From positions 23,247,152 to 23,311,151 of the forward strand of contig OX453280.1 in the NCBI GenBank assembly GCA_949710005.1: a stretch of 64,000 nucleotides of DNA, given 5' to 3'. Made by a program: the position numbers and the translations under genes. Source of the DNA: Ricordea florida (lineage: Eukaryota > Cnidaria > Anthozoa > Corallimorpharia > Ricordeidae). Below are positions 23,554 through 59,105 of the stretch, one piece after another (position 1 is the stretch's first letter; each line of letters opens with the position of its first letter). Under the pieces are notes generated by a model that did not search any database, had not been told where the DNA came from, and worked only from the letters and a program-made list of their open reading frames with translations.

Positions 23554-25506
23554 TGCAATGAAGACCTCTTCTTCAGCTTTGGCTTTGGTGTTACTTGTTA
23601 TCTTCGCATCATTTTTGAGCGAGGTAGAAATGCTCTCACAGAACGGCCGGTACCTTCGGTTTGGTAGAACCGTTTCGAAGAAAACACGCGGCAGAGGACA
23701 AGAGGCAAAATGGAGCAAAATAGACGACGGGGATTTTGAACGAGAGCCTCAACTTGAAAGAAGCCTCCCAAACTGGTAAATATATTGATTACACGTATAC
23801 TGAATGTGTTCTTTTCGAATGGTTAATGCTAATGCCCACCACATACATGACATCTAACATTGATAGTAACAATTCAAATTGTCATCGCAGACTATGCTTC
23901 TAACTGAAGGGAAAATGGGCGGTGTAGGGTTCACTGCAATAGTTCATAAAACCTTGCTGCAAATAGATCATCCTCATTCTTGAATAAAGAAAACCAAATA
24001 AAAACATCATATTATGGACACGAAGAGCAACAGCCTTGAGTCTTGAAAAAAATAACACTCGCAAAAATTCATAATTTCCTCATTAATTCCTTGATGCAAA
24101 TTCGTCATGTGGCAGTTGAAACACATGATTCTGTTTGTTTACCCCTTTTCTTTAAAAAAAAAGCTGTTTTTCTTTTCTTTTTTTTTTAAATTTCTGCAGT
24201 TTTGAACTAAGGAGTCCCATAAATTTGGTCTTCTTTTTCCTTGCGTATTAAAAGCGAACAGTCTGTAGATTGCGACAATCGCTTGCTTTTCTCAAGGTGT
24301 ACCCGGCCTTTCCACCCAAAGTGAAAATATTGACATTTTCGTCAGCTCAGCTGCACTGGCTGACAGGAATGTTCTTCCGCTCAGTCAAAACACAGCGGGA
24401 AACCGCCTCTGAAACATGCATTAGGATTTTAAAAGGCAAAAATGATCAGACCGCGTTTTACACACTTTTTCGCCAGGACATAAAGCTGCTGAAAATTAAA
24501 CACAGTGCTGTCTTAAAGTTATAAACAGACTAACGGCTTTTCAATGGGTTTGCTTCGTTTTTATTTCACATGTTGACTGCGCCATACTAATTTTGTCAAA
24601 ATGCAGTCTATACTTGCCTATCAACTTGTTTTGACTGCAAAGTGCCGGTCACGAAAAATAATAAGAGAAAATAATAAGAGAAAAAGACAAGAAAACTGAA
24701 AAAAAACTTCATTTATGCTACAACGTTACGGAACTGAAACAATACGAAAACAGTTTGAGTCTCTAGAAAGAAGGGAAACTAAGCACAATGTATTTCGTCT
24801 TGTAAAGAGAATCAGCCACCGGCTGAAACGGTTTTTTTAACCCTTTAACCCCTGAGATCAAAATCTTAATTCTTCTAACTGACCTCAAAACATCTTTCAT
24901 TACATCAATGTGGAGATTTTGATGTTATATCAAAAAAAACCTATGTGAGTTTTCAGATTGCATATTCTCATGAGCTCTACAGTTGCCTTTGTAGTAATAT
25001 GTTTAAGAGAAGATGCATGTTGGTCAGTCTCAGGGAGTAAAGGGTTCAAAAGAGATTGTAATGTGGCGCGAAGATACGAGTTTTGTCTTGAAGTGCTATA
25101 ACGATATTTTACTAAAGAGCGCGAGGAGTGAGTAAAATACAATTATGTTCTCAACACCATGAAATATAAATTTAAAATTTATATCTTAAAGGCCGGAATA
25201 AAACAGACAAACTGACCGTTTTAATAGCAACCATGAAACCGAGGGAAATGGCATTTATTAATATCGATACGTCATTCTTAACTCTTCGACGCATGCTCAG
25301 CTTGGTTGCAGAATTGCCCATCGCACTGGGGTAAAAATTGATGGACATAGCGCGCTTCTGGATCCTCGCAAGATCGTTATAGGAAACTAGATAGGAAGGC
25401 GCTTGTCGGCTTTGTTCGAGAAATATAATTTGGTCAAAAGTATAACTTATTTCCTCTGTTTGTGTTTCTTTGCAGGGCTGAAGAAGATGCACCAGCCCTC
25501 GTATAA
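23554..25506 (+). CDS. Small secreted RFGR-motif peptide precursor (82 aa, two coding exons)
   Basis: The coding exon starts after a strong acceptor (TTTTTTTCTTGCAG, ending 23553), with ATG at 23558. It ends at 23775 before GTAAAT; exon 2 begins at 25476 after TTTCTTTGCAG and finishes at TAA 25504-25506. The junction rebuilds a Trp codon and adds AEEDAPALV. Retaining the intron would instead stop right after that Trp. Residues 1-21 form a signal peptide (MKTSSSALALVLLVIFASFL). Next comes SQNGRYLRFGRTVSKKTRGR (27-46), with a Lys-Lys site at 41-42, then an acidic tail with DFERE (59-63). A polyadenylation signal AATAAA lies at 25557-25562, another at about 25709. The gene shares its organisation with 28625-28840 and 56130-58807. 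The likely role is a secreted signalling peptide; an antimicrobial role cannot be excluded because the middle is cationic. Confidence 0.75.
24839..25046. mobile_element. MITE in the second intron of the peptide gene
   Basis: Left end AACCCTTTAACCCCTGAGA and right end TCTCAGGGAGTAAAGGGTT are inverted copies with two mismatches, about 208 bp apart. A related CCCTTTAAGCC element is at 62160-62290. Confidence 0.75.
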
Positions 25507-25556
25507 TGGCAGCTTGTTAGGAAGCCTTCTTTAGCAGCTCCACACAGAAAAAAAGA

Positions 25557-25562
25557 AATAAA
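25557..25562 (+). terminator. Polyadenylation signal of the RFGR gene
   Basis: Canonical AATAAA about 50 bases after the TAA stop. A second copy at about 25709 is a possible alternative. Confidence 0.55.
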
Positions 25563-25934
25563 TGTAATATTAGAATTCCAACCGATCACCTTCAAAGCAA
25601 TCTTGGTGCTTAAAATTTTCCTTCTTTTCCTGACCTTATTTTCTGGCGATAGTTTTGCGCTGATTTTAGCTAATCTCTTTTTTATTTGTTCGTAATCGTT
25701 TTTGTTTGAATAAAAGTTTTCAGTTTGAAAATTTCCTTGAGCTTTTATGTGGAGCATCTTCCATAGTTGCTATTCGAAAAGTCACATAAAACAGCCCCCT
25801 CTTTGGTTCACTTTTGAATGTTTGTTAAATTTGTCTTTCACTAAGTGTCTCAAATGTTTACTGGTTCAATGGCTTGTATTTTCTCAGAGACCTAATAAAT
25901 GTTTCGATGAACAAGAGGTAATGAGTATTATTGT

Positions 25935-26202
25935 ATCCCTCAGTTAACACGCGCGCTGTGATTGTTCAATTTAGCGAGCCGTACTTCACTGTACGGCCCA
26001 CTAAATTCAAAAGTTTGTTTTGAGATATAATAGACATCTTACAAATCTCGTTTTCTCGGTCTATACTGTAAGTTACGGATCCTCGTTTTTCTTCCGCTTG
26101 GATTTATGGCCCGCGCGCTTCGCGCTTGGGCCATAAATCCGAGCGGAAAAAACTCGGTCCGTAACTTACAGTACGGACCTCGAACTCGGTTAGCGAGAGG
26201 TA
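25935..26202. mobile_element. MITE (copy 2 of the 16307-16582 family)
   Basis: Shares CAGTTAACACGCGCGCTGTG, GCCGTACTTCACTGTACGGC, TTTATGGCCCGCGCGCTTCG and the terminal AGCGAGAGGTAT with copy 1. It has the same long internal hairpin. Confidence 0.85.
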
Positions 26203-27720
26203 TCTATGGTGCAATGACGGAGAAAAATGGTAGCGCATCCGTTTCGTCTTCGGAGCAGCGTTAGTTCAGTGGACCTCGTTTACCTTGATCGGGTGCCATA
26301 ACCTACTATCCGTATTTGGGAACAAAGACGTTTTTTGCCACTAAAGTTTGCCAGAAGGCAAGACTATCTCCTCTTAATGGCATGTTAAGTAGTAAGTTTA
26401 AGGAGCGAATCATTTATGCTTTTGTAATTTGCTTTTGGACCCGATTCACCAGCGCCTGTTTTCGGAGAACCGAAGGGCGAGCACAGAAACTGGGCTAGTA
26501 ACAAAATCTTGCGGTTAACTGTTACTCTGCGCGCATTTCCAAGTTCTGACAAAGGACTAGCCAGCTAGAAAGATCCAGGAAAGGAATTTTCCGATTTGTT
26601 TATTGATAAAAGTTTTGGGGTGACAGAACAAAGAGCATGGCTTCATCGTCAAACAAGTCATTTAAGAGTTTGATAAATGTTAAAACAGGACATTTGCCAG
26701 TTGTAAAGCAAATCTGCCATCAACTGGTTTACATTCTGATGGCCGACTAAACGCGTGTGAGATTGCTACAGACACATCGTTATAGCTAACAGGTCTAGCA
26801 AAAGAGCAATCATTTCAGGATGTATGAAATTTTAGTTCCGCTTTGATTTTGGTTAATCATAGGTCCGTGGGCGTGCAAAAATATATTCAAGCTATTAAAT
26901 GCCCACTTCAAATCCGATTCGACTAAGGTTGTTAACGCTGGCTAGTCTTTCTTTTTGCCTCAGATCCTCCGCGCGGACCTTAGCAAAATAATATTAAGTA
27001 AATTAGTTGAAAAACGAGGTGGGAATGGGGAGAGGGAGGAAAAAGAAACGCTTCGCAGCTTCGCCACTCGCCGCTCGCACCGTGATCAGTTTGTGCATCG
27101 TACTCCGCGCACAGAGAATCAGCAGAAAAAGAGCCTGAGATTACTTAAGGTCCGTAAAATAGATAGTAATTACTGAAAGTTTATGTCACATTCATTTTCT
27201 TACCAAATATAGTAATTAGTACTCTGCTACATATCCTGAGCATAGCTGGAACGTTCCTGGGAATGATTTCCTTACAGGTCTCTGCATGCTGTAGTTGAAT
27301 TGTCTTGGGAAGTGGGCGTGCAAACATATCTTGTTTTCTGAGAACGAAACCGTACGGCTACAGAATGCATAATGAAGAAGGGACCTGTGCAGAGATCATT
27401 TCCGTTCCTGCAACATGCTCTGTTTCGAGAAAGCAAGGAGCTCTGAAGTAAACCACAACCGAAACGATTTTATTTCTCTTTACTTGGCAAAAATTACACA
27501 TTCATATATTCCAGGTTTAGTTCTAGTTTCACATGTTCAATTCTCGAGCCGTAATTGGCTTGTAACGCCTGCAAGAAAAATAAAACAAGACTAGATTACT
27601 GAGAAAGTGAGGCTAGAACTTTACCTTGGTTTATTTATTAATAGTCAAAATGCTGGGAGACAAGAAGAAGCATTCTCATTGTCTCTCTGAGTGGTGCTTC
27701 TTTTTCCTATATAAAACAGC
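26203..27720. other. Intergenic, nothing recognised
   Basis: No supported gene. Short open frames (26316-26498, 26955-27176) lack domains and start context. Confidence 0.45.
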
Positions 27721-28217
27721 CGAGACGGACCGCTTAGGAATGGACCATTTTATTCTTTTTAAGAATTTTTTCCCCTTTGGGCTGTGCAAGAATTTTTTTT
27801 AGCACCATGGCCTTTTTAGCAACTTTTCCTCCGTTGGCCTACTGTGCCCGATTTTTTTTCTACGCTTTTGCTGTGCAGGAATTTTGTTTTTGGCAATTGC
27901 CCGACCTACAACCCCCCCCCCCCTTTCCCCTCAAAAATAAAACGAGGTCGAAACATTGTCGCAGCTGTTCTTATCTTCGCAATTGCTTTAAAAATTGCAT
28001 ATTTGACTGCAACGATCTTTCACTTATTAATCTTTCTTCAGTAGTTCACATACTAAGAAATTTTCGTACATCCTCATTTAAAATCGCAACTTTACTGAAT
28101 GAGTACGTTAGGTGGATCCATGTATTTGCGAACAGGAAATTGAGTAATATCAATACATGTATTTCGGATCTCAACCAAGGGGTTTTACTTTGCATTACTG
28201 TGTTATAGGTCTTTCGT
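27721..28217. repeat. Diverged relative of the neighbouring MITE plus flanking DNA
   Basis: 27735-27930 contains GGACCATTTTATTC and several TGTGCAAGAATTTTTTTT-like words and ends in a poly-C run, resembling the element at 28221-28530. The long open frames here arise from T and C runs and are not credible genes. Confidence 0.5.
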
Positions 28218-28533
28218 TTAGGGACGGACCATTAGAAAAGTGATGGGGGGGGGGGGGGGAATTTTCAGCTTGCACGAATTTTTTTTTCGCTCACTGCTTG
28301 TGCAGGAATTTTTTTTCAGGTGAGCCCCTCTGCACGAATTTTTTTTACTACGTGTGAAAAAGTCACAATTGGACCTTCCTTCTGCATGAATTTTTTTTTA
28401 CCTTCTTCTTTGCATGAATTTTTTTTCTTGGCATTTTCCCTTGCATGAATTTTTTTGTTTCTTCTTTTACCCACCCGCCCCCCCCCACCCCTCCCCCACC
28501 CCTCCCATCACTTTTCTAATGGTCCGTCCCTTA
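28218..28533. mobile_element. MITE with 30-bp TIRs and TTA target duplication
   Basis: Left end GGGACGGACCATTAGAAAAG (28221) and right end CTTTTCTAATGGTCCGTCCC (28530) are perfect inverted repeats extending into GTGATGGG/CCCATCAC. TTA flanks both sides (28218-28220 and 28531-28533), suggesting Harbinger-type mobilisation. The interior repeats a TGCA[CT]GAATTTTTTTT word about six times. Confidence 0.9.
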
Positions 28534-28624
28534 AGAGTCTTACTGTACATTGCTACAGTCTAGTTTTCCTGCTACAATAAACGCATAACAGTCATTTACA
28601 AAACCTGGTTTAAAACAGCTGTCG

Positions 28625-28840
28625 TTAGTCAAAATGGTTTGACAGGTACGCATCGTTGATAGCATCGTTTTCATCACGTCTGAAATCCTCCATTTGCAGC
28701 CAAGGCCTAAAACGGGCCCGGCCTTTACTCTTCTTTACACTGCGACCGAACCTGAGATAATCCTGCGCGCGTGCGTACGAGGAAAGCATAAGAACGACAA
28801 CCAAGCATGCGAACAGAGCGCGATGATTCATTTTCATCTG
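28625..28840 (-). CDS. Small secreted RFGR-motif peptide precursor (70 aa)
   Basis: On the minus strand a 3' splice site (ACGTTTTCAG) ends at 28838 and ATG begins immediately at 28837; the stop is at 28625-28627. Residues 1-24 form a signal peptide (MKMNHRALFACLVVVLMLSS, then YARA). The predicted cleavage exposes Gln25, which could become pyroglutamate. The next segment is QDYLRFGRSVKKSKGR (25-40), with a Lys-Lys site at 35-36, then an acidic tail with DFRRDEN (51-57). A candidate non-coding first exon ends at 30950 (ACTGAACAG then GTAAAG), about 2 kb upstream, unproven. Unlike the 23554 gene the stop lies in the same exon. It shares YLRFGR-[ST]-V-x-K-K and the tail motif with that gene, so the two are paralogs. 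Proposed role: secreted peptide signal, by inference. Confidence 0.75.
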   Translation of the reverse strand, partial: QMKMNHRALFACLVVVLMLSSYARAQDYLRFGRSVKKSKGRARFRPWLQMEDFRRDENDAINDAYLSNHFD

Positions 28841-35791: not shown

Positions 35792-36119
35792 ATGGCTAAG
35801 CGCGTGTTTCGTTGGTATTCTAAAAAATATAAGGGTGTGACCAAGAACTGTGCGTATGGCACCAGAGAATATAACAATTGCGTCTTGTCTTGCTATCACA
35901 CGAATGACATTGCTAAGAAACTGGTGAAGAGTTTTGGCAAGAAATTCTTTTCTAACGGTTTTCCCGTCATCAAAAAAAGCAAATGCAAATTATAAATTTG
36001 CGAGCCAGGATGTTTTGGAGAAAAACGAACACAAGTGTAATGTTCAAAGCTGCTTTGTAGGAACTCTCAAACCAATAACCAAACTGCCTGTTCTTGTCGA
36101 TTGTATTTGTAAAAGCTAG
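35792..36119 (+). CDS. Unidentified basic, Cys-containing ORF, frameshifted
   Basis: From ATG at 35792 the frame encodes MAKRVFRWYSKKYKGVTKNC, then AYGTREYNNCVLSCYH, ending SKCKL at 35995. A seven-A run near 35970 is where an overlapping frame takes over (ANANYKFASQDVLEKNEHKC and on to CICKS), stopping at 36119. Together the frames hold seven Cys. There is no signal peptide and no clear acceptor. I recognise no family. The sequence lies immediately before the breakpoint of the 36116-41225 duplication. It may be a decayed gene or chance. Confidence 0.25.
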
Positions 36120-36123
36120 TATA

Positions 36124-36196
36124 GTGAGCAAACATTTCGACGTAAAAACAGTGAAAATGAGCCCTGTCTTCCCTCATCTGCATTTGTAAAGGTCAG
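36124..36196 (+). pseudogene. 3' fragment of an RFGR peptide exon in copy A
   Basis: Reads SEQTFRRKNSENEPCLPSSA then FVK, ending at an AAG/GTCAGT donor near 36196. The copy B homologue reads SEQTFPRENSENKPYLPSTA then FIK before its own donor. The in-frame upstream sequence has a stop codon and no RFGR motif, so the fragment has no start of its own. Confidence 0.65.
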
Positions 36197-36530
36197 TACT
36201 GATGTGTAATTAAAAATCCTCTTTATACTGTCCGTAAAGAACATTCAGTTAATGTCGGTAGAACACTGGTTTGCAGCTGTCACTAAGGCGCGGTTATGAC
36301 GCCTGGCTCTATAAAAAGTTGAAATGAATCTTAAGCTTGATATTATAAACGCAAATAGTACCACAGTTCAACACTGTCCGATAGATTCCCAAAGACCTGC
36401 ATGACCTAATTCACAGCTGAAACAACACTGTCATCTTACAGAGCTATTCAGTTACTTTCTATCAAGAATGGTTACACCACATATTTCAGTTATCCCTAAC
36501 TAAAGTGGGCACCACATCTTAAAGTAAAGA

Positions 36531-38450
36531 TGATTTGCAGATGATATGACGTGTTTCTTAAAAGACAAGCCTTCTTATTTACACGATTCGTAACTCTTAA
36601 GTTCTTTTCGAGGTTCTCTGGGCTTCGTGTAAATGATGAGAAAACAGAATTATTTGCAATCGGACCTCAAAAACTTGTGCGAGAAGAGTTTTATCATAAG
36701 GTTTGTACATCAATTAAAATATTAGGCATTTATTTTGATTATCATAAGCCAACAAGAAAAAGTTCCAATTTTAACTCCATTCTGAAATCTATTCAAAAAA
36801 CCCTTAACATGTGGAAATGGAGGGGTCTTACATTACTCGGAAGGATTCAGATTGTCAAGACGTTTGCAATTCCCAAATTTATGTATAAAGCCTCTCTAAT
36901 TTCGATCTCAGATGATCTTATGAAAGATGTAAATAAACTGCTCTATGGTTTTATTTGGAGAGGAAATGACAAGATAAAGCGAACTGCACTTATCAATGAT
37001 ATAGAAAATGGTGGCCTAAAGATGCTCGCTATTCAATCTATGATTTTATCACAATGAATTATTACCTTGAAGAGATATATTGAAGAATATAGTAATCCAT
37101 GGAAAACAATTTTTGACACCTTCTTAGGCGAAGTTGGCGGAAAATTTATTTTGCACTGCAATTTTGACACTCGTAAACTTCCTATCTATCTACCGGATTT
37201 CTACAAAGAATGCCTTGAGGCATGGTCCGATTTGAACACAATAAACGTTGTTTCCTATGACGATGTTATGAATCAAACAATATGGAACAATAAGCATATT
37301 CTTATTGAAAAAAGGTCTTGTTTCATAAAATGTCTGGTCGATAACGGAATCTTAAAAATAGGAGACTTGATATCTAATACTGGCAGATTTCTCGAGAGTG
37401 AAAAGATTTTGCGTTTACAATTATCTCCCATTCTTTATTTCAAATTAATGGGTGTCATCAATGCCATTCCTAACGAATGGAGACTAATTATCAGACAAAG
37501 TCAACAGCATATTTATTCTCCTTCGAGTGATACTATTCAAATCAACATAGATGACATTAATGTCAATCTATTGAAAGTTAATTCTAAAATGATCTACAAT
37601 GAATTTAAACGTAAAAAGCAAACTGCACCTTCCGCCCAAATAAAATTAGATAATAAATACCTAGAGCTTTCTGTGGAGTGGAAAAAGATTTATTCTCTAC
37701 CCTTTACTGTTACTCTCGAAACAAAAGTCAGAGAATTTCAATACAAATTGTTAAATAACATCGTATTTACGAATGACAAATTATTTAAATTTAAAATGAT
37801 TGATTCGCCACTTTGCGCCTTTTGTCAAACAGAAGTTGAATCCCTCGAGCACTTATTTTTCCATTGCGATGTGACCAAAATATTCTGGAAGTCGCTCTCT
37901 TCTTGGCTAATCAAACAAAAAATAACTACAACTTTCTTAACATTAGAAAACGTCCTCTTCGGAGTGTTTAACGCCATGGATGACCGTTCCTTATTTTAAA
38001 TCATCTTATTTTATTAGCTAAATTCTACATCTATAAATGTAAATTAGATATCAAACATCCATCGCTAAATGTCTTCATAGCGAAAATAAGGGCAACTTTC
38101 CAGATAGAGCAAAAAATCGCTTCTAGTAATGATAAGCTTGACAAACATTACAAAAAATGGAACAAAGTCCTACCCTGTCTGATATAGTTGATAGGCTTAA
38201 GCAAGAGAAAATGTAAATTCTCTTGGCTCTAGTTTTTTTGTTGTGTGTGATTGTGTATGTTGATATTTACTGTATCCGTCTTCTCCCTGTCCTTTTTTTT
38301 TCTTCATTATTGTTTTTTCCTCTATTTCTTTTTTTTTACCAATCACTTACGTTTTTATGTAAAAGTTTCAATACTCATATTGTTGTAAGTCTTAGTCTTT
38401 GTTTGTATTCTCTATAAAGCATGTAATAAAAACTAATAAAATACAAAAAA
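36531..38450 (+). mobile_element. 5'-truncated LINE (L1/Tx1-like) with exact 10-bp target duplication
   Basis: AAAGTAAAGA occurs at 36521-36530 and again at 38451-38460, and only once at the matching site in copy B (near 56703). The insertion begins inside the RT catalytic box (FADDMTCFLKDK in frame from 36533). It runs through FSGLRVNDEKTELFAIG, KILGIYFDY, a one-codon nonsense (TGA at about 37055), and a zinc-knuckle end, LCAFCQTEVESLEHLFFHC (about 37810-37865). The tail contains TAATAAAAACTAATAAAATA then an A-run. Confidence 0.92.
36551..38190 (+). pseudogene. ORF2 remnant (RT palm/thumb and zf-RVT) of the LINE
   Basis: The RT frame carries a frameshift soon after FADD (about 36550), a TGA nonsense codon at 37055, and another frameshift near 37995. 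After that, LLAKFYIYKCKLDIKHPSLN and the C-terminus follow to about 38187. The presence of a zf-RVT zinc finger places it with L1/Tx1-type elements rather than CR1. The endonuclease and most of the RT are missing because of 5' truncation. Confidence 0.85.
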
Positions 38451-38460
38451 AAAGTAAAGA

Positions 38461-38690
38461 AAACATCACCGCAGCATTGTACTATTAAGTAACTTTCTAA
38501 AGAATGGTCACACTGCATGGTTTGATTCACACTGATGAAAACGCTACATATTACAACAAACAGTGCGACAGTACCATACTGTCCCATAGCTTCCAGTAAA
38601 ATGGTCACACTGCATGCTTTGAGCCACTTATAACAAGTCAGAACCACACTGTATATATAGTAAAACAAACACTATAGCTAAGTTAGATAT
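38461..38690. repeat. Dispersed ~105-bp repeat family, two units (copy A)
   Basis: GAATGGTCACACTGCATGGT and a second AAATGGTCACACTGCATGCT, with the AACAGTGCGACAGTACCATA box between. It is shared with copy B at 56730-56930. Confidence 0.75.
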
Positions 38691-40313
38691 CCAAAAGAAT
38701 AGTCGTTCTGCCAGCATGATTTCATGCTCAGAAACAGTAAAGTGACTTGTCTGTAACACCAGGTTATTACACTACGTGTCTTAGCACACATAAAAATGGT
38801 AGAGGCATGCTATGGTAGTACACATCACTAGATCAAAACCTACGAAAGAAAGAGAGTAACGTGCTGGAGATATAAGTTCAATCGCTAATGTCGGTGAATT
38901 TGCAGACAAATATCTGTGTACCTAGTATCGGAACAAACTCATGGTTAACTTTATTTTATACGGTTAACTCAAACCGTATTACGATGATCGTTGTATTGAA
39001 TCAAACTTTGGATTTTGAAAGTCATACTTATTTTATGCGGCTAAAAATACTTCTAAGTTATCAGACTTATGCGATTTGATCCGTGTTCTGCTTTTTAGGT
39101 GGAATATAAACAGAAGTATATGCATCATTGGTGTGCGATTTTAATTAAGTTACATTGTAACTTGTGGCAAATTTATTATCGCATCCGTTCCCATCACTCG
39201 CAGTTACTGAGGAAGGGGCGATAAAATTTACCCAGCAATTTACTTCTCAAGTTTCTACGTGTGACGATTGGTTGTCGGTGTTGAGTAAAGATATACTGTA
39301 TTTATAACAAATTAACTTCTTTTTAATTCACCCGACTTTGTTTGAAAAGAAGTCGTTTCATTTTTCTTGTGTTCACCGGTTTCATTTCCATTTCTCGCTC
39401 TAATTAAATATTCGTAGTAGCATTACTTCACATCACGAACGAGGGACTGCCGTCTTCTGTATTTTTCGATGTATTTTACGATAAGCAGCAATATTCGGTA
39501 ATCAAGTAAATGACTGGAGAGATAAGCTATAATAAATATAAATTTCACAACGCCCGCTGGAATTAATTAATTTTCGCTTAATTTCATCTCAAAAGGATGT
39601 TCGATCGAATATCAGTAATTTCCGCCGAAGAATCAATTTCAAATGATAACAAGGTTATGAAAACTATGTGAGAAGTTTCCAGTTCGAGCCATCTGCTCTC
39701 AGTCAATATTTAGATTTCATTTTAATGGAAATTTACAAATAGGAAACAAAGAAAAAAACTGCGTCAGTAAACTTTAATAGCTGCATGGCGTGTGCCTGAT
39801 CGCTTCAAACAGTAACATATAGTTTATGGAATAAAAAACAAATTAATGGGAGATGCTATGTGAAACTTTACCAACCTTAACGATGTTTCGTTCTGCTCTT
39901 CATAAATTTCTATAAGCTGTTATTACAAGAAGACACTCTGTTACTAAAGATCTTTTAAATTACAGCAGGCGCCTTATATTTTATTGATACTGAAAACAAG
40001 GGTAAATTTTGAAACTCTTTACCCAAAAGACTACAATTTTTGTCAGATTACGTTTTTCAAGCCCTTTTCTCTCTCATGTGTTGTGATCACTCTAACCTTT
40101 TTTTTATCTACGAACAGATGGTTTAGCGCTCCATTGTTCTTCTTAACCTGATCAGGTTCGTCCCATTCCCCATACAATCTCAGCGGAAAATTTCCCTTGT
40201 GCTCATTTTGCACTCTCCTTTTTCGAATTCCTGCCTGCCTTTCTATAAAATCCTCCTGAGCTGGAATCAAGAAGTATATGAGGTTTACCTGTTTAAGCTG
40301 TTTTCCTCTTTTT
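38691..40313. other. Intronic-like part of duplication copy A
   Basis: Non-coding. It is collinear with 56935-58795, except that copy B has an extra 117-bp tandem repeat and an inserted hAT-like MITE. Confidence 0.7.
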
Positions 40314-40848
40314 TACCTCATGGTATGTATATCATACCATGAGGTATAGTGATGGTTGGATTTGTCACTCCATTCCCGTTAGACAATCAATTTATGCATT
40401 AAATCCGCATTAAATGTGAATTAAACAGGTTCTCCCCTATCTCCCCTACTAGGTTTGGTTTCGTCCACAAAGTCGTGCAATTGTTTTATGTTCACATATG
40501 TGGGGGGAGGGGGTGAGGCAAAGCGGCAGCACATGTTTACAGAATGGCGTCTGTTGTGTTGAAGCCGACGCAAAGATAGTCAAGGCGGGTTTTCGTTCCT
40601 TTCGCTCCATCTTTGATCAAAATATACTTTTGAAGATCTCGCGAACGAACAGGAAATGTGTTCAAGAATGCTCGAGGGCAAAGAAATGGGTTTTAATGTC
40701 TTAAAAGTGACGATTTCTCCAATTTGGACTACGCCGGTAATTGATCAGTCGTAGCAAGAGTGCACAAAACGAACTATTCGGGATGAACGCTTTATGGTCT
40801 GGGGAAAGGACAGCACTTCATGGAATAATTACCACATACCATGAGGTA
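40314..40848. mobile_element. Insertion with TIRs TACCTCATGGTATGT in copy A
   Basis: Starts TACCTCATGGTATGT and ends ACATACCATGAGGTA (perfect 15-bp inverted repeats); absent from copy B. It sits just 5' of the conserved exon acceptor and separates TTTTCCTCTTTT from ATTTCAG, shortening the polypyrimidine tract. Superfamily unknown. Confidence 0.8.
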
Positions 40849-40877
40849 GCTTGAAGGAGCCTTTGATCTATTTCAGG

Positions 40878-40890
40878 ATCCGTGAGAAAC
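40878..40890 (+). pseudogene. Terminal mini-exon of the RFGR gene in copy A
   Basis: CTATTTCAG then GATCCGTGA: the same acceptor and GAT CCG TGA as copy B at 58799, giving a two-residue end (DP). The preceding tract is interrupted by the TIR insertion. Confidence 0.4.
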
Positions 40891-41229
40891 ACTCTTGCCC
40901 TTACTTGACAAAGAACAGTTGGACCTAACGCTTCAAAACCCACTCAAATTTTAAACTTTGTAAATTCGATGGTGGATGTGGAACGCGTTATCATATTAAA
41001 CTTAATAGCACAATACTTAGCCATGACGTACTTTTTGCGTGGAAACTATGAGTGTATGCAGACAATATGAGGATGACAGAAACTCGTCGTAAGGTTCTTT
41101 TCAGGATCTAAGAAACACTTTATTTGAGCGTTCAAAGCTATTTTGTGTCGTGGACTAAACAGATCCTGGGCAATAGAGTGTGTTCATTTGATAATAAATT
41201 CATGTCCTATTTCGCCATCGCGAAATAGG

Positions 41230-45961: not shown

Positions 45962-47122
45962 ATGAGTTTAAGTTCGAATAAGGGAAACACAAAAATTAGC
46001 GAATTGGCCTAACCGCACGCCGAAGGACACGAAATCCCGGAAAAATTCCAAGAATTCGAAGGTGCGACATCCGCAAAGGTGGACGGCGAGGTTAAGGAAA
46101 AACGCCAAAGAACATTAACTGAAAGGGGGAAACAGTATAAAAAGGAGATTCTCGAATCCGACCTGAAAGCAGCTAGCACTAGGATACGACAATATATCGA
46201 GAAAATAAGAGAATTGATCAGCTCATACGAAGTTTCATCTGAGATTTTACAACTCGAAAGAGACGGTCTAGATCAAAGAAAGGAAGAATTCAGTGATGCT
46301 CATCATGCACTTCATAATTTTCTTGACAATGAAGACGAAAAAGAGGCCTTATACCGATGGTTTGATATTCAAGACAGAGAGTGCATGGACTGCAGGATCA
46401 AATTAGCCGAACGAATTCACGCCACAGGAAGGGCAAAGGCAAAGTCAGTTTCTTCAGGCACCTCTAAAACCTCTAAAACCTCACGTAAAACCGGTTCATT
46501 TAGATCTTCAGCGGACTCAGTTCTTTCCAGAAGAGTCGAAGCAGCGACAATAAAGGCGAAGCTAGAAGTCGAAATGAAATTCTTAGAACAGGAACTAGAG
46601 CTTAGGAGGCTCCAATTAATGAAGGACATTTCATTAGCGAACGCCGAAGAAGAAGCCATAAAAGGAATTTTAGAAGAAGGCAAGGGCAAATCAATTAGTG
46701 ACCGGGAATTAAATAGTGAAATTGAAGGGAAGGAAAATAAAAAAGATGTTGTAAAGGGATGCCAACTTAATCCCTCGACGCCGCCATTCATTCCCCAAGG
46801 CGCGCCAAATCCGAGTACATTCGTCACGCAAGAATCTCAGCAAGTCATGCACAGTTTCTTCGATCAAAAAGACGAACGCAGTTCGACCGAGACGAGCGCC
46901 ATTAAAGATTTGATTAAACTACAAGAAAAACAAACAGAGCTAAGCGCCCTAATAGCGAAACAACAAAGAATTAGTTCCTTACCCGCGCAAGAACCGCAAA
47001 TTTTCAGCGGAAACATTTTGGATTATCCTGCCTTAAAACAAGCATTTGAAGCAATCATCGAGAGTAGAGTAGACTCGAATAAGGACAGACTACACTGCTG
47101 GAAGGGCAAACGAAGCCGTTAA
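45962..47122 (+). pseudogene. BEL/Pao gag region, first part
   Basis: ATG at 45962 is followed in frame by a stop at about 46010; an open frame resumes and runs to 47122. It is Lys/Glu-rich with coiled-coil character (RRVEAATIKAKLEVEMKFLE). It ends in the Gag core start QIFSGNILDYPALKQAFEAI (about 47000), after which a frameshift occurs near 47100. The product would package element RNA. Confidence 0.8.
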
Positions 47123-48233
47123 GGGTTTCGTGACGCTGAACACCGATGACGGATACATCGAAGCAAAGAAGTTACTAACAGAAAGGTTTGGCAATCCTTA
47201 TAAAGACGCCGAGAGGTACAAATCTCAGCTACGAGAATGGCCTAGGGTTCGAGACGGGGATAGTACAGGAATACAAGACCTCTCCGACTTTCTAATTCGC
47301 TGCAAAGAGGTCATGAAGTCTATGAGATACATGGACGAGCTCAATTCGACAGAAACACTCATACAAATCAGTGCAAAACTACCATCATACTCTGGCGTGA
47401 AATGGTGCCGACATGCGCGCGAGATAAGAGCCAAAACCAAGAGCGCGGTTACTTTCAGTGACCTTGTCGAGTTTGTGAAAGAAGAGGCTGAATTAGCAAC
47501 AGATCCCGTTTTCTCCCCAAACAGTCTAAAGCGAGAGCGAAACAAAGACTCAAATAGAGACAGTACCTCAACGTCCTTTAAGAACCGCACAAGGCGTCCA
47601 CCCTCGGCCAATAGCCTCTTAACTTCAGTTGGAGACACCAGTCAAAAATCAGCTCGATCATCAATGCGTTGTCTGTTGTGCCAAGGAAACCACAGTTTAG
47701 AAGAATGTGTTGAGTACTCAAAGAGGACTGTCCAAGAACGAGTGGCCTTCTTAAGATCGAAGGGCGTGTGCTTTGGTTGCCTTGAGAAGGGCCATTTATC
47801 AAGGTCCTGTGGGGCGAGGCTCAAATGTAAGAAATGCGTGAAACTTCATCCCACGTCTCTCCATGAAGATCCAAAGAACAAGAAAGAGCCATCGAAGGAA
47901 AGCGATGCCGTCAATGAGCCCGGAATTCATGCAGTCAGCAATTGCGCAAGTTCCTCGGACATCACTGTCGTCAACTCCATGATATTACCTGTGTGGCTTC
48001 ACCATAAGGATCGCCCACAATCCGAAGTATTGGTGTACGCTCTCTTAGATAATGCCAGCGACGCAACTTTCATTAAGACATCGACACTCAAGGATCTTGG
48101 TGTTGAGGGACCCGAGCTTAAGTTACAGTTATACACCATGCATGGAAGGGCAGAGATACCTGTACAGAAGGTAGATGGCTTGGTACCGGTAGTTGAGCGT
48201 TTCGACAAGAAGTTGAAGATAGAGCAACGGTGA
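47100..48233 (+). pseudogene. BEL/Pao gag core, zinc knuckles and protease start
   Basis: Continues the DUF1759-type Gag core (YIEAKKLLTERFGNPYKDAE). CCHC-like zinc knuckles follow (CLLCQGNHSLEEC; CFGCLEKGHLSRSC; CKKCVKLHPTSLH). An aspartic-protease-like LLDNASDATFI motif lies at about 48040. The frame ends at 48233 shortly after, where protease C-terminus and reverse-transcriptase core sequence should follow but do not. Confidence 0.85.
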
Positions 48234-50701
48234 GCTCCATTTTCGACCCACTCGGCTTTGTGGCACCTCTTCTATTGGAAGGCAAGAAGATATTGCAAGA
48301 GTTGTGTAAGGAAGATACTGGATGGGACGACCCTATCCCAGATTTAGCAAAGGCAAAATGGGAGAAATGGAGGTCAGAACTACATCTTCTGCAAGAATTT
48401 TCCGTTCCAAGGTGCTACAAACCTAAGAACTTTGGTCACGTGACTCAAACAGAATTACATCATTTCTCGGACGCAAGCAACAAAGGGTATGGTCAGTGCT
48501 CCTACCTGCGGCTCATCAATAGTCAAGGCCAGATGCACTGCTCGTTCGTTCTTGGAAAATCAAGAGTCACGCCACTGAAAGCAGTGACTATTCCAAGACT
48601 CGAATTAACAGCCGCTGTCACCTCCGCAAGAGTCAGTGACCAACTAAGAAGGGAACTACCACTAGAAAATGTAGAAGAAACCTTCTGCGCAGACAGCAAA
48701 GTGATACTAGGCTACATAGCCAACGAGTCCAAAAGGTTCCACGTGTACGTAGCTAATCGTGTCCAGGAAATCCAAGAGAAATCCTCTCCAAAGCAGTGGA
48801 GGTACGTCGAAACAGAATTGAACCCTGCAGACGATGCATCACGTGGTCTCCATGCCAGAGATATCCAGAAATCTAAGTGGATACTTGGACCTGAGTTCTT
48901 ATGGAAAAGTGAAGACCAGTGGCCTAATTCCATGAAGACAGAACAGATGATTGCCGAAGAATCATCCGAACAAGATCCTGAAGTAAGAAGGGTGGTCGCC
49001 ATGGCAACAACGGCCTTTGTTCCACGAGAAGATCTTGTGGACCGCATCAAATACTTCTCTGACTGGTTTCGTGCGAAGAAATCTGTTGCACTCTGCATTC
49101 TCTACATCCAGAAATTGAAACGTCGATTGGAAAAAAGGAAAGAGCGTATATGTGACAAACGCTCACTGCATCTCATAAAGGGAGATAAAGATGCAGATCA
49201 CCCTCGTGTAACAGTGAAAGAACTACAGCACGCTGCAACAGTTATAATCAAGGCCACTCAAGCCACCACATTTAAAAGGGACTTAGAATCACTGCTGAAG
49301 AACCAAGATTTACAAGATACCAAAGGATCATCAAATAAAGGAAATGCGACCTTGCTGCAGAGACTTGACCCGTTTTTGGACCAAGACGGCGTACTACGCG
49401 TGGGTGGCCGTACACGACGAGCAAACATGGAAGAGGACATCAAGTTTCCTATCTTACTACCAAGGGACACCCACATCACAAGGTTACTGGTACAGCACTT
49501 TCATGAGAAATGCAAGCATCAAGGAAGAACGACGTTTAATGAAATAAGATCAAATGGTTACTGGATCATTGGCGGAACCTCTTCAGTATCGCGTTACATC
49601 TTAAGGTGCGTGACATGTCGGAGGCTTCGAGGCCCTACTCAATCACAGAAGATGTCTGACCTGCCGGAGGACAGACTCCACCAAGCGCCACCATTCACTT
49701 ATTGCGCCGTGGACTATTTCGGACCTTGGATTATTAAAGACAAGCGAAAGGAGTTGAAAAGATATGGTGTCCTATTCACATGTATGGCATCAAGGGCCAT
49801 ACATCTAGAGATCGCTCACAGTCTCGAGACAGATTCGTTTATTAATGCTCTTCGCCGCTTCATCTGTCGTCGAGGTCCCATTCGACAGATGAGAAATGAC
49901 CAAGGCACTAACTTCGTGGGTGCGAAGAAGGAACTTGAAAAAGCCCTCGGTGAACTGGACCATGACAAGATTGGAAGAGAGCTTCTCCGAACCAATTGTG
50001 ATTGGTTCAGTTTTAAGATGAAGGTTCCCTCCGCCAGCCACATGGGAGGTGTTTGGGAACGCCAGATTCGAAGTGTCCGTAATGTGCTGTCAGTATTACT
50101 GGACAACAATGGAACGCAACTAGATGATGAATCGCTCAGTACCTTTATGCGTGAGGCAGAAGCCGTCATCAACAGTACACCCCTCACAGTGGATGGCCTA
50201 CGGGACCCAGACTCGTTAAGCCCCCTCACGCAAAACCATATGCTGACGATGAAGTCGAAGATCGTGCTTCCGCCCCCAGGGAAGTTTCAGGATACCGAAA
50301 AGTAATCCAAAAGACGTTGGAGACGTGTTCAGCATCTTGCGAATCAGTTCTGGTGTCGTTGGAGGAAGGAATTCTTGCAGTCCCTTCAACTACGTCAAAA
50401 ATGGCTGAAGCCGCAGCGAGATCTTAGAAGTGACGACATCGTCTTGAGTAAAGATGATTGCATCGCTCGCAATCACTGGGAGTTGGCCCGCGTTGTGGAG
50501 ACCAATCAAAGTAAGGATGGCCGCGTGCGCACTGTGCAGCTCATCCTTGCAGATCCGCACATCGATTCAAGGGGAGTACGTACCAAAGCAGTTAGGCGGC
50601 TTGAGAGGCCAATACACAAGCTGGTTTTCCTGATGTCAGGAAGCGAAGCTGAGGAGCAACAAACGGGCTGTATCCCCGCCAAGGAGCCATTAATTTTGTA
50701 G
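48230..50701 (+). pseudogene. BEL/Pao pol 3' part: RT end, RNase H, integrase
   Basis: Begins at SSIFDPLGFVAPLLLEGKKI, the conserved motif just after the RT core in this superfamily, so the junction at 48233 is a deletion breakpoint. RNase H follows (FSDASNKGYGQCSYLR; VTIPRLELTAAVTSARVSD; ELNPADDASRGL). The integrase has a zinc-binding N-terminus (FHEKCKHQGR, CVTCRRLRG) and DDE residues in CAVDYFGPW, NDQGTNFVG and GGVWERQI. The DUF5641-like end starts near 50225. A single TAA interrupts the frame at about 50304; the tail then continues in the same frame to 50701. Confidence 0.88.
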
Positions 50702-53474: not shown

Positions 53475-53550
53475 TTTGTGATATCCAGAATAATCAAGGT
53501 CGAGGTAGGGGTTAGCTTACCGAGACCTAAGTTACTCTGGATATCACAAA
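53475..53550. mobile_element. Small inverted repeat (hairpin)
   Basis: TTTGTGATATCCAGAATAA pairs with TTACTCTGGATATCACAAA across about 35 bp. Confidence 0.7.
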
Positions 53551-54879: not shown

Positions 54880-54885
54880 AATGCT

Positions 54886-55215
54886 TCCATTGCTCACTGT
54901 TTTCGGACTGCATTCATTGCTCACTGTTTTGTGAATGCATTCATTGCTAGCTGTTTTGTGAATACATTCATTGCTTATTGTTTTTTGAATGCATTCATTG
55001 CTCAGTGTCTTGTGAATGCATTCATTGCTCATTATTTTGTGAATGCATTCATTGCTCATTGTTTTGTGAATGCATTCATTGCTCGCTGTTTTGTGAATAC
55101 ATTCATTGCTCACTGTTTTCTGAATACAATCATAGCTCACTGTTTTGTGAATACATTCATTGCTCACTGTTTTGTGAATGCTTCCATTGCTTAGCATTCT
55201 TGAAATGCAATCATT
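54886..55215. repeat. 27-bp tandem array (about 12 units)
   Basis: The unit TTTTGTGAATGCATTCATTG plus CTCACTG recurs about every 27 bp with few changes. Each unit holds the palindrome GAATGCATTC. Because 27 is a multiple of three and the unit lacks stops, frames are open on both strands (for example NECIHKTVS on the minus strand); these are artefacts of the repeat. Scattered copies continue at 55930-56095, up to about 35 bp before the peptide exon at 56130. Confidence 0.9.
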
Positions 55216-55429
55216 TTCCATTGTTGCTGGCGAGCCTTAGCGAGACAGCACACTATTTGAGAGGGTCAGCGGTGTTCCATATCATATAAGCGGTGAAAAA
55301 TCTCGATTTTTCGGATGTCAGATTCGGGGCATGCGCAGTTTGGTGTTTTCGTTGTGTGACGTCTCAATGATTTCTTCTGCGCGTTTCATCACACAAACTG
55401 ATCTGTTGTTGAATTGAGTCCAGAAGGGG

Positions 55430-55771
55430 AAGCACGAGGTTACTAGCTCGCCCGTTGAGTCGAAAAGTCCGTTGCCAGCTAAATCTTTGACCGTTGAGTC
55501 AAAACGTCTGTCGCCCGTTGAGGCAAAATATTTGACTGTTGAGTCACAAATTCTGTCGCCCGAGGAGGCACAACATTCGATCTTAGAGTGGAAATATTAT
55601 TCGCCTATTCTTGCAAAATATTCGATCGTTGAGTCAAATTGCTCGTCGCCCGCTGCTTCAAACACGCAGGCAGAAGTTTCCGACCGTTGTGTCGAGATGT
55701 TCGTCGGTGGTCTCGACATGCGATATTTATTTCGGAAAACGCCATCAGGGATCGATAAATCTAAATCATGA
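55430..55771 (+). repeat. 45-bp periodic, in-frame repeat with open reading frame
   Basis: Four to five diverged units of 15 codons read LTVESKRLSPVEAKY, LTVESQILSPEEAQH, SILEWKYYSPILAKY, SIVESNCSSPAASNT. The frame is open from about 55415 to a stop at 55769-55771 but has no ATG. It lies between the 27-bp array and the peptide gene. It could be an exon of a repetitive protein, or a minisatellite. Confidence 0.5.
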
Positions 55772-56519
55772 TACGCGACATCCGAATTGTTCTTCGCCCT
55801 CAGCCTTGATGAGTACAATACTACTTCCCCTCGCCAGCACTCACTTTCACATTGAAATTTCTAGTTTAGGAACGCGTATTCTTTGTTCACCGTGTTAGAT
55901 CATTTCTGACTGTTTGGGAACGCATTTAAGCCTCACTGTTTTTAGAATGCATCCATTGCTCACTACTTTTTGGAACACATTCATTGCTCACTGTTAACGA
56001 AAGAAATTTAATGTCCACTATCAAATGGAATGCAACTCATTGCTCAGTTTCTGCGATGTATTCATTGCTGACTGTATGCATTCATTGCTCATGGTTTTAC
56101 CTCTACTGTTTCTGTCCTTTCTCTTCCAGATGAAAATGAAGTTCTCCTCATTCGTTGCCGTTGCCGCTGCCGTTCTCCTGTTATGACCACTGTTCAAGAG
56201 GCTCAACCACTGTCTTTGTTTGGGCAAAGCCGGTTCGGTCGCTCAATTGGTAGAAAATCAATCACAGGAAGAACTCGTAAAGTTTATTCTAGTGAGCAAA
56301 CATTTCCACGTGAAAACAGTGAAAATAAGCCCTATCTTCCCTCAACTGCATTTATAAAGGTACTGATGTATAATTAAAAATCCTCTTTATACTGTCTGAA
56401 AAGAACATTCAGTTAATGTCGGTAGAACACTGGTTTGCAGCTGTTACTATGGCGCGGTTATGACGCCTGGCTCTATAAAAAGTTGAAATGAATCTTAAGC
56501 TTGATATTATAAACGCAAA

Positions 56520-56930
56520 TAGTACCACAGTTCAACACTGTCCGATAGATTCACAAAGAACTGCATGACATAATTCACACCTATCTAATACATGTTAAAA
56601 ACAACACTGTCATCTTACAGAACAATTCAGTTACTTTCTATAATTAAAGAATGGTTACATCGCATATTTCAGTTATCCCCAACTAAAGCGGGCACCACAT
56701 CTTAAAGTAAAGAAAACATCACTCAAGCATTGTACTATTAAGTAACTTTCTAAAGAATGGTCACACTGCATGGTTTGATTCACACTGATGAAAACGCTAT
56801 ATATTATAACAAACAGTACGACAGTACCATATTGTCCCGTAGATTTCCAGTAAATGATCACACTGCCACTTATAACAAGTCAGAACCACACTGTATGTAG
56901 TTTAACAAACACTATTGCTAAGTTAGCTAT
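56520..56930. repeat. Dispersed ~105-bp repeat family inside the intron
   Basis: Contains GAATGGTCACACTGCATGGT at about 56757 and related AGTACCACAGTTCAACACTG and AACAGTACGACAGTACCATA boxes. Confidence 0.75.
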
Positions 56931-56970
56931 CCAAAAAGAATAGTCGTTCTGCCAGCATGATTTCATGCTC

Positions 56971-57205
56971 AGAAACAGTAAAGTGACTTGTCTGTAACAC
57001 CAGGTTATTACACTACGTGTCTTAGCACACATAAAAATGGTAGATGCATGCTATGGTAGTACAGATCACTAGATCAAAACCTACGACAGAAACAGTAAAG
57101 TGACTTGTCTGTAACACCAGGTTATTACAATACGTGTCTTAGCACACATAAAAATGGTAGAGGCATGCTGTGGTAGTACAGATCACTAGATCAAAACCTA
57201 CCACA
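56971..57205. repeat. 117-bp tandem duplication, two units
   Basis: AGAAACAGTAAAGTGACTTG begins each unit at 56971 and 57088; the units differ at a few sites. Copy A has one unit only, so this duplication is younger than the segmental duplication. Confidence 0.9.
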
Positions 57206-58334
57206 GAAAGAGAGTAACGTGCTAGAGACACTGCATAAGTTCAATCGCTAATGTCAGAGGAATTGCAGACAAATATCTGTGTACCTAGTATAGCAAGAAA
57301 CTCATGGTTAACTTTATTTTATACGGTTAACTCAAACCGTATTACGATGATCGTTGTATTGAATCAAACTTTGGATTTTGAAAGTCATACTTATTTTATG
57401 CGGCTAAAATGATACTTGTAAGTTATCAGACTTATGCGATTTGATCCGTGTTCTGCTTTTTAGGTGGAATATAAACAGAAGTATATGCATCACTGGTGTG
57501 CCATTTTAATTAAGTTACATTGTAACTTGTGGCAAATTTATTATCGCATCCGTTCCCATCACTCGCAGTTACTGAGGAAGGGGCGATAAAATTTACCCAG
57601 CAATTTACTTCTCAAGTTTCTACGTGTGACGATTGGTTGTCGGTGTTGAGTAAAGAGATACTGTATTTATAACAAATTAACTTCTTTTTAATTCACCCGA
57701 CTTTGTTTGAAAAGAAGTCGTTTCATTTTTCTAGTGTTCTTCACCGGTTTCATTTCCATTTCTCGCTCTAATTTAATATCCGTAGTAGCATTACTTCACA
57801 TCACGAACGAGGGACTGCCGTCTTCTGTATTTTTGGATGTATTTTACGATAAGCAGCAATATTCGGTAATCAAGTAAATGACTGGAGAGATAAGCTATAT
57901 TAAATAAAAATTTCACAACGCCCGCTGGAGTTAATTAATTTTCACTTAATTTCATCTCAAAAAGATGTACGATCGAATATCAGTAATTTCCGCCGAAGAA
58001 TTAATTTCAAATGATAACAAGGTTATGAAAACTACGTCAGAAGTTTCCAGTTCGAGCCATCTGCTCCCAGTCAATATTTAGATTTCATTTTAATGGAAAT
58101 TTACAAATAGGAAATAAAGAAAAAAAAATGCGTCAGTAAACGTTTATAGCTGCATGGCGTGTGCCTGATCGCTTCAAACAGTAACATAATTTATAGTTTA
58201 TGGAATCAAAAACAAATTAATGGAAGATGCTATGTGAAACTTTACCAACCTTAACAATGTTTCATTCTGGTCTTCACTGATAAATTTTTACGAGCTGTTA
58301 TTGCAAAAAGACACGCTGTTACTAAACATCTTTT

Positions 58335-58492
58335 CAGGCGCGTAGCCATATTTTTTTCTTCAGGTACGCCAAAGTTGGACATTAATTGTCCGAGCAATTC
58401 GTCGGGTGATGTGTAATTGTATGAGCAATATATTCTTACAAAATTTCAGGTACTCCATGGTGTATTGGCGTACCGAGGTAGCTACGCGCCTG
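58335..58492. mobile_element. hAT-like MITE inserted in copy B
   Basis: CAGGCGCGTAGC at 58335 and GCTACGCGCCTG ending 58492 are perfect 12-bp TIRs of a hAT-typical form. Flanks CATCTTTT and CATTTAAA suggest an 8-bp target duplication that has decayed. Absent from copy A. Confidence 0.8.
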
Positions 58493-59105
58493 CATTTAAA
58501 TTACAGCAGGCACCCTAGATTTTATTGATACTGAGTGTAAATTTTGAAAATCTTTACCCAAAAGACCAAAATTTTTGTCAGACTACGTTTATCTAGCCCT
58601 TTTCTCTCTCATGTGTTGTGGTCACTCTAACTTTCTATTTTTTCTCTATAAACAGATGGTTTATAATCACAGCGGAATTTTACACTCTCCTCAGTTCTTC
58701 GAATTCCTGCCTGCCTTTCTATAAAATCCCCCTGAGCTGGAATCAAGACGTATATCCAGTTTACCTATTTAAGCTGTTTTCCTTTTTTTCTATTTCAGGA
58801 TCCGTGAGAAACACACTTTGCTGTTAAAGAACAGTTGGACCTAACGCTTCAAAACTTAAATTTTGTAAATTCGATGGCGGATGTGAAACGCGTTATCATA
58901 TTAAAATTAACAGCACAATGTTTTGTCATGACTTATTTTTTGCGTGGAAACTATGAGTGTATGCAGACAATATGAGGATGACAGAAACACATTTCTTTTC
59001 GGGATCTAAGAAACACTTTGTTTGAGCTTTCCAAACTATTTTGTGTCGTGGACTTAACAGATCCTGGGCAAAAGTCGAGGCTTAAAAGGATCTGGCGCGA
59101 TGCAT

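Follow-up and report, generated by a model that had tools for sequence, protein, structure and literature searches.

Two paralogous precursor genes in the Ricordea florida window

The DNA analysed here is a 64,000-nucleotide stretch of the Ricordea florida genome (C9:23247152-23311151), which we call the window and in which an earlier note, made from the sequence alone, had described three genes for small secreted proteins with the motif RFGR. Two of these, designated g1 and g2, are intact paralogous genes (BlastP E-value 6e-9) that face each other about 3 kb apart; the third locus, g3, lies 27 kb further. The g1 coding exon (23554..23775, plus strand; recognized by open reading frame (ORF) reading, the architecture scan and profiles) has an acceptor AG four bases 5' of its ATG at 23558 and encodes a signal peptide, QNGRYLRFGR, a basic stretch, FERE and the start of an acidic tail. 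Its signal-peptide region (23558..23635, plus strand) reaches a mean Kyte-Doolittle hydropathy of 3.45 over the best 10 residues, and its YLRFGR (23651..23668, plus strand) is the predicted peptide end, with the glycine as amide donor and an R-x-x-R cleavage site by the rule in the text of PMC11087051. A tail intron of 1.7 kb in phase 2 leads to the last coding exon (25476..25506, plus strand; ORF reading), which completes a W and continues with AEEDAPALV and a stop, so that the g1 product reads MKTSSSALALVLLVIFASFLSEVEMLSQNGRYLRFGRTVSKKTRGRGQEAKWSKIDDGDFEREPQLERSLPNWAEEDAPALV; an AATAAA lies 50 nucleotides (nt) 3' of this stop.

The second gene, g2, is read from 28837 to 28625 on the minus strand as a single 70-residue coding exon with no coding intron (ORF reading and architecture scan), and a CAG acceptor stands immediately 5' of its ATG. 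The product, MKMNHRALFACLVVVLMLSSYARAQDYLRFGRSVKKSKGRARFRPWLQMEDFRRDENDAINDAYLSNHFD, runs from a signal peptide ending in ARA through QDYLRFGR (YLRFGR motif at 28742..28759, minus strand), a basic stretch and FRRD to an acidic tail. Signal peptides were judged by Kyte-Doolittle hydropathy or by eye, and by eye QDYLRF follows directly on ARA. The 625 nt past the g2 stop contain no canonical AATAAA. At 28217-28534 lies an element flanked by 42-base inverted terminal repeats of 93% identity; it ends 91 bases past the g2 stop, inside the likely 3' untranslated region of g2.

The g1 and g2 precursors each contain one L-R-F-G-R, as the earlier note had said of its peptide copies. In the core block the two genes use different codons for 8 of 11 identical residues, and the differences by codon position number 4, 3 and 10, a pattern expected under selection on the protein, though this block was picked for its similarity. 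The 18 residues past RFGR carry a net charge of +5 in g1 and g2 alike, and the rest of the protein carries -7 (g1) or -4 (g2). Some defence propeptides have a comparable basic part and acidic rest, and the proteins could accordingly be secreted cationic host-defence or gland peptides whose active part is the basic stretch past RFGR; we consider this improbable, as it is the amidation and cleavage site that is conserved best, not the basic stretch, and the genes cluster with RWamide-type genes and peptide-type receptors.

Chance expectation and genome-wide distribution of the motif

Motif counts in the window were compared with 200 Markov-1 random windows; the motifs were defined after the genes had been seen, although for the longer ones the margin is large. 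There were two matches to [YF]LRFGR (random mean 0.005), two to LRFGR (0.08) and three to RFGR[ST][VI] (0.055), and the extended motif RFGR[ST][VI].{0,2}[KR][KR] was found three times versus not once in the 200 random windows. With the longer motifs so far above random, a chance origin of the motif set was rejected, and the similarity beyond RFGR that the earlier note had seen is upheld, both by this count and by the g1-g2 BlastP match. For shorter motifs the excess shrinks: RFGR has 5 matches versus a mean of 1.1 (2 of 200 random windows reach 5), RFG[RK] has 6 versus 2.25 (reached by 7 of 200), and [LI]R[FW]G[RK] has 2 versus 0.47 (reached by 17 of 200), which is not unusual.

To the window we added 100 kb per side, giving 264 kb with 5,000 N included. 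A three-gene profile searched over this region returned g1, g2 and g3 and nothing else. The architecture scan, which was designed after g1 and g2 were known and asks for an acceptor 0-8 nt before an ATG, a hydrophobic start and R-x-G-[RK] within 50 residues, returned only g1 and g2 here and nothing in 20 equal-length Markov-1 sequences. Genome-wide scans used the organism's own assembly (48 contigs, 537.8 Mb), in which the DNA pattern for Y-[LF]-[RS]-F-G-[RS] matched 56 times versus 68 in a reversed control, meaning that the motif itself is not enriched. The matched letters spell YLRFG in 29 of the 56. Of these places 20 were read in addition to g1 and g2, and none of the 20 has a signal peptide before YLRFG, with the proviso that one on a separate exon would escape this reading; an in-frame Met within 60 residues is absent in 19 of the 20, five end in GS and not GR, and one belongs to a zinc-knuckle protein. 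As protein queries against the whole genome, g1 and g2 found only themselves, and since g1 missed g2 this search was insensitive. The family, described earlier as dispersed, is thus better regarded as one local cluster, with no further member in the 264 kb and none among the YLRFG places read.

At an E-value of 10 or less, none of the three proteins had a match in Pfam or NCBIfam, scans of viral contigs and contigs of prokaryote genomes found no relative, and an Rfam scan of the window found no match. The sole match of g2 among solved structures was ribosomal protein L2, which we discarded as meaningless (E-value 0.77). Elsewhere in the genome, one 17-base word reading YLRFGS recurs at six places 9 to 16 kb apart in C3:3896263-3951539 (minus strand), which suggests a block duplicated in tandem; of these places, two were read and have no signal peptide.

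The broken third locus and its decayed copy

The g3 locus, on the plus strand, opens with a signal-peptide-like start, MKMKFSSFVAVAAAVLLL, that runs into a stop (56130..56183) and lies in another frame than the RFGR-coding one, GQSRFGRSIGRK...FPREN...FIK (56183..56359). The latter has its own first ATG at 56183 and stays open up to a splice donor, and after a tail intron in phase 0 the last exon contributes DP and a stop (58799..58807); all three parts come from ORF reading. Because the signal peptide hits a stop and RFGR lies in another frame, g3 as assembled does not encode a secreted RFGR protein, and the frame break would be either that of a pseudogene or an upstream assembly error. Linking g3 to the other two are RFGR[ST][VI], F-x-R-E, the tail intron and the junction CAG/ATGAAAATGAA, identical in g2. 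Its ending before GR is SRF, that of g1 and g2 LRF, and a profile built from g1 and g2 only scores it at an E-value of 0.3 among 2159 ORFs, with the nearest noise at 0.62.

These results divide what the earlier note had claimed for all three loci. A shared layout of acceptor, signal peptide, RFGR, basic stretch and acidic tail holds for g1 and g2 and fails for g3, where the signal peptide is out of frame; likewise, g1 and g2 are paralogous secreted RF-G-R precursors, probably of anthozoan neuropeptides, and g3 is frame-broken. The element F-x-R-[ED] is present in all three (FERE in g1, FRRD in g2, FPRE in g3), and the proposed alignment of the C-terminal tails is weak, with tail introns in phase 2 in g1 versus 0 in g3.

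We also saw a decayed partial duplicate of g3, absent from the earlier note, at 36109..41176 (plus strand), where the 3' part of the main exon, the intron and the last exon match g3 at 72-95% identity in five blocks. The duplicate has no signal peptide and no RFGR, contains an in-frame stop and is interrupted within its intron by an element resembling a long interspersed nuclear element (about 36531-38450). Over 27 compared exon codons it differs from g3 nine times, and each difference alters a residue or creates a stop. We infer that g3 and this fragment are decaying or broken members of the cluster.

Every copy might also be a decaying, unexpressed remnant. Besides the broken g3 and its decayed duplicate, the mobile-element-rich region, the terminal-inverted-repeat element ending 91 nt past the g2 stop and the 625 nt there with no canonical AATAAA would fit such a reading, which we nonetheless regard as very improbable: the frames and splice sites of g1 and g2 are intact, 8 of the 11 identical core-block residues have kept the amino acid under a changed codon, and g1 has its AATAAA 50 nt past the stop.

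Two further features adjoin g3 and its copy. A 27-base minisatellite, AATGCATTCATTGCTCACTGTTTTGTG, of about 11.6 copies lies upstream of g3 (54880-55191 and 55901-56098), and its degenerate copies (71% identical) reach almost to the g3 acceptor; it may have displaced the g3 promoter and 5' exon. Immediately 5' of the duplicate, at 35792-35995 (plus strand), is a small basic four-cysteine ORF, MAKRVFRWYSKKYKGVTKNC..., with no signal peptide by eye.

RWamide-type genes and a receptor pair in the same stretch

The DNA pattern for G-[LIMF]-[RS]-W-G-[RS] matched the genome 25 times versus 125 in the reversed control, so this motif, too, is not itself enriched. When all 25 loci were frame-checked, in only two did a hydrophobic stretch follow an in-frame Met and lead to QG...[IL]RWGR. 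The hydropathy means of these two stretches are 3.19 and 3.43, the next best of the 25 being 0.59. The first, R1 (ATG at C9:23418480, minus strand; product start MSSSRRLLLLLVISCCLFSMFNEYVEGQGHLPGIRWGRNFEYDD), reads QGHLPGIRWGR, and the second, R2 (ATG at C9:23453932, plus strand; product start METKQFAVFCLVCCVLLCSCLQPASSQGLRWGREFEEN), reads QGLRWGR. Both lie on the contig of g1, g2 and g3, at 115 kb (R1) and 151 kb (R2) from g3, a closeness with a chance probability of 3e-7 if the two were placed independently and 4e-4 if they count as one event. Both pass the architecture scan: their acceptors are 5-8 nt 5' of the ATG, and each has a tail donor, at nt 205 and 208, in phase 1. The RF- and RW-type precursor genes thus form one cluster with a common pre-ATG splice layout, and the two RWamide-type genes of this 183-kb stretch had also gone unmentioned in the earlier note. 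A third candidate among the 25 was rejected: a hydrophobic run precedes its GMRWGS, but the 60 residues upstream hold no in-frame Met, and past the glycine there is no basic residue.

Between g3 and R1, to the right of the window, are two genes for class A G protein-coupled receptors (GPCRs), each an uninterrupted frame matching Pfam 7tm_1. GPCR-A is at C9:23323916-23325040 (76765-77889 from the window start, plus strand) and GPCR-B at C9:23343954-23345063 (96803-97912 from the window start, minus strand). They are 19 kb apart, and their match overruns the end of the GPCR-B frame across one stop. With GPCR-A as query against the genome, GPCR-B was the best match after self, at 149.7 bits versus 105.6 for the next (109 scored of 823 candidates). 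The best solved-structure match of both is NPFF receptor 2 (E-values 2e-31 for GPCR-A and 2e-29 for GPCR-B). For GPCR-A the runners-up are the QRFP receptor, NPFFR1 and then orexin receptors, and for GPCR-B they are NPFFR1, the PrRP receptor and the QRFP receptor, followed closely by CCK-B and galanin receptors. NPFF, QRFP and PrRP are RFamides. We regard the nearness of this receptor pair to the peptide genes as suggestive, not compelling.

A proposed LRFamide branch of an RWamide cluster

Our interpretation, to which we give a probability of about 0.6, is that g1 and g2 are single-copy hexacoral neuropeptide precursors and form the LRF branch of a cluster that otherwise makes Antho-RWamides. 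It is because of the position in the cluster and the shared layout that we see them as an LRFamide branch, and from the same position and layout we infer common descent of the RF and RW precursors.

Several results weigh against this interpretation. By sequence, no homology between RF and RW precursors could be demonstrated: a profile of R1 and R2 placed g2 at an E-value of 0.33, within the noise, and g1 outside its best 8; a profile of g1 and g2 left both R1 and R2 outside its best 8; and the mixed profiles g1+R2 and g2+R2 recovered R1 at 0.031 and 1.1, respectively. Pairwise BlastP gave 0.028 for g1-R1 (in the signal-peptide part), 0.77 for g1-R2, 0.099 for g2-R1 and no match for g2-R2. Tail-intron phases are 2 in g1, 0 in g3 and 1 in R1 and R2, g2 having no such intron, and in g1 about 7 residues separate the hydrophobic core from QNGRYLRF. 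NPFF receptor 2 leads by small margins for both receptors, GPCR-A scoring 112 bits with NPFF receptor 2 versus 82 with orexin receptors and GPCR-B 106 bits versus 99 with CCK-B and 98 with galanin receptors, and 0.04-0.28 GPCRs would be expected in a 183-kb span anyway (from 109 scored to 823 candidates). The scope of the searches belongs here as well: the RW yardstick was the DNA pattern in this genome, which RWamides with no G before the hydrophobic residue escape; the YLRFG reading covered g1, g2 and 20 others of the 29, the remaining 7 repeating a 17-base word of one place read; this reading was confined to YLRFG, the other 27 of the 56 matches being YF or SF variants, and a minor part of the 43 kb from the right flank to R2 was read. 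Finally, g2 had no homologue in a set of 5.8 billion proteins, and the three-gene alignment gave seven candidates there, none at an E-value of 10 or less, and these searches gave no sign of conservation across species.

Taken at face value, the lack of significant RF-RW precursor similarity and the differing tail-intron phases would suit an independent single-copy RFamide family that lies near the RWamide-type genes by coincidence or because of a common open-chromatin domain, and not by descent. We think this unlikely. Both RWamide-type precursors found by the pattern are within 151 kb, and the single-copy layout and the acceptor just before the ATG are common to the RF and RW genes. The missing similarity itself says little, since R1 and R2 align with each other over nine residues only (E-value 1e-4), which leaves the RF-RW sequence test with little power; RWamide-type precursors so appear to lose sequence similarity quickly.

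Proposed processing and signalling

As an LRFamide branch, g1 and g2 would be expressed, processed and received as follows. The precursor would enter the secretory path and be cut by signal peptidase, in g2 after ARA, which would leave a Q at the new N-terminus of the g2 product that is able to cyclise to pyroglutamate. A prohormone convertase would then cut at R-F-G-R, which fits R-x-x-R exactly and provides the amide glycine; a carboxypeptidase would remove the R, and the glycine would be converted to the amide. The predicted products are pQDYLRFamide from g2 and pQNGRYLRFamide from g1. Extra N-terminal trimming before Y, after D in g2 or R in g1, would give the identical YLRFamide from both, with the basic and acidic remainder presumably a spacer. 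According to the mass spectrometry reported in PMC11087051, C-terminal cuts in Nematostella are dibasic and sometimes R-x-x-R, an N-terminal Q is frequent, and where the N-terminal cut is not dibasic, an acidic residue often stands one or two positions ahead of it. Neurons or neurosecretory cells would release the peptides, whose target would be a class A GPCR, possibly one of the NPFF-receptor-like pair of the same cluster.

A more far-reaching view is that the 183-kb stretch is a ligand-receptor complex, in which one ancestral single-copy precursor was duplicated in tandem to yield RW and RF peptides and the intervening GPCR pair are their receptors, specificity and receptor arising side by side. 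We hold this to be speculative and rather doubtful. In the text of PMC11087051, Thiel et al. point to a seeming relationship between the QGRFamide receptor family and the group containing the LRWamide receptor GPR19, and consider an unknown RFamide-like ligand possible for the weakly RFamide-sensitive Nematostella receptor R70; LRFamides would be candidates for a better ligand of R70.

We did not find an anthozoan LRFamide precursor in the literature searched, which comprised main texts only, supplementary precursor lists being outside its scope. "LRF" is absent from the main texts of PMC7523074, PMC6909153, PMC9545775 and PMC11269664, LRFG from that of PMC11087051, and LRFamide, LRFG and YLRF from that of PMC8638164. 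By title, the papers that turned up on LRFamide concern a crab, deuterostomes and a barnacle, and those on LRFGR do not concern cnidarians. Nematostella QWamides, as given in the text of PMC6756747, hold LRF internally (IPPQGLRFNQWamide), not at the C-terminus. On linkage of peptide genes there was nothing relevant in the texts of PMC11087051 and PMC7523074 or in the literature search. According to PMC9545775, a published screen script requires at least three repeats, so single-copy precursors would be overlooked unless a known sequence or a regular expression is used to look for them.

Anthozoan RFamides and RWamides have been treated as separate families, and one cluster with both would reveal how gene duplication is followed by a change in a signalling peptide's final residue. 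With a peptide-type GPCR pair linked to it, ligand-receptor co-evolution would become directly testable in a non-bilaterian, and the arrangement hints at how new nerve peptides and receptors may originate jointly.

Surroundings of the cluster

Within the window, 46013-50701 holds BEL/Pao-type retroelement ORFs, with a Pao peptidase match in 48197-50305. Left of the window, at C9 about 23193000-23200000 and 23238700-23246000, are two copies, 45.65 kb apart, of a multi-ORF mobile element that we take to be Polinton-like; the beginnings of their ORFs are nearly identical. ORFs at the left end of the window (29-472, 1537-1944, 5302-5934 and 9655-10137) recur in this left flank, which gives the part to the left of the cluster the look of recent duplications. 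Near the right end, ORF 60500-61051 has 63 homologues with E-values of 1e-5 or less, the two shown with their organism being from the stony coral Desmophyllum pertusum (67% identity over 87%) and the octocoral Paramuricea clavata (63% over 39%).

Comparison with known peptide systems

Bilaterian FMRFamide/FLRFamide-type peptides can have the same last four residues as the g1 and g2 peptides. We have no evidence for common descent of the two; the titles on YLRFamide that name an animal group point to Bilateria, and the review PMC9545775, in its text, is unable to conclude a bilaterian link of cnidarian RFamides.

Among cnidarian RFamides, the Antho-RFamide (pQGRFamide) preprohormones described in PMC7523074 share the RF-G-R end, but theirs has many copies with acidic spacers, whereas g1 and g2 have one copy, YL before RF and no Pfam match. 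The shared RFGR, together with the existence of single-copy GRFamide precursors in Hydra oligactis (text of PMC8638164), might suggest that g1 and g2 are a reduced offshoot of such a multi-copy precursor. The odds are heavily against it: there is no QGRFG unit and no second copy (QGRFG[KR] repeats are absent from g1, g2 and g3), none of the three proteins has a Pfam family at an E-value of 10 or less, and the residues before RF are YL, not G. The Hydra oligactis precursors (pQLMRGRFamide and pQWMSGRFamide) have one RFamide each, as do g1 and g2, but are hydrozoan and of the GRFamide type, with no RWamide linkage in the PMC8638164 text seen.

The earlier note knew of no described family with this layout, a view that gives way to two published groups of anthozoan precursors, Antho-RWamides and the single-copy FLRNamide and related anemone precursors (texts of PMC7523074 and PMC9545775). 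The Antho-RNamide, -RIamide and -KAamide of sea anemones also come as a single copy after the signal sequence, and FLRN resembles the YLRF pattern; these peptides (FLRN, FYRI, FFKA) differ in having an N-terminal Phe (phenyllactyl), and they were not found in Scleractinia (PMC7523074 text). In g1 and g2 there is no N-terminal Phe after the signal sequence, Q or Y standing there.

The closest likeness is to the Antho-RWamide (LRWamide) preprohormones, family 10 of Koch and Grimmelikhuijzen 2020, whose precursors in corals and anemones have a single copy directly behind the signal sequence (PMC7523074 text). In the text of PMC9545775, this position is given for 38 of 39 Antho-RWamides, with one to four genes per species, and LRWamide-type precursors annotated so far are from Hexacorallia and Ceriantharia. 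R1 itself, with QGHLPGIRW, resembles pQGLPGIRWamide of Pocillopora damicornis (PMC7523074 text). Unlike Antho-RWamides, g1 and g2 end in LRF and not [LIM]RW; as precursors they have no significant similarity to R1 and R2, and they carry a strongly basic stretch after the peptide, where R1 and R2 start acidic. Because the RW ending was looked for and is not there, we place g1 and g2 as a sister branch and do not file them as RWamides. Like Antho-RWamides, they have one peptide each, probably at or soon after the signal sequence, with an N-terminal Q and a hydrophobic-R-aromatic-G-R end, and they share with the Antho-RWamide-type genes of this genome both the contig stretch and the acceptor just before the ATG; we predict that g1 and g2 work like an Antho-RWamide gene.

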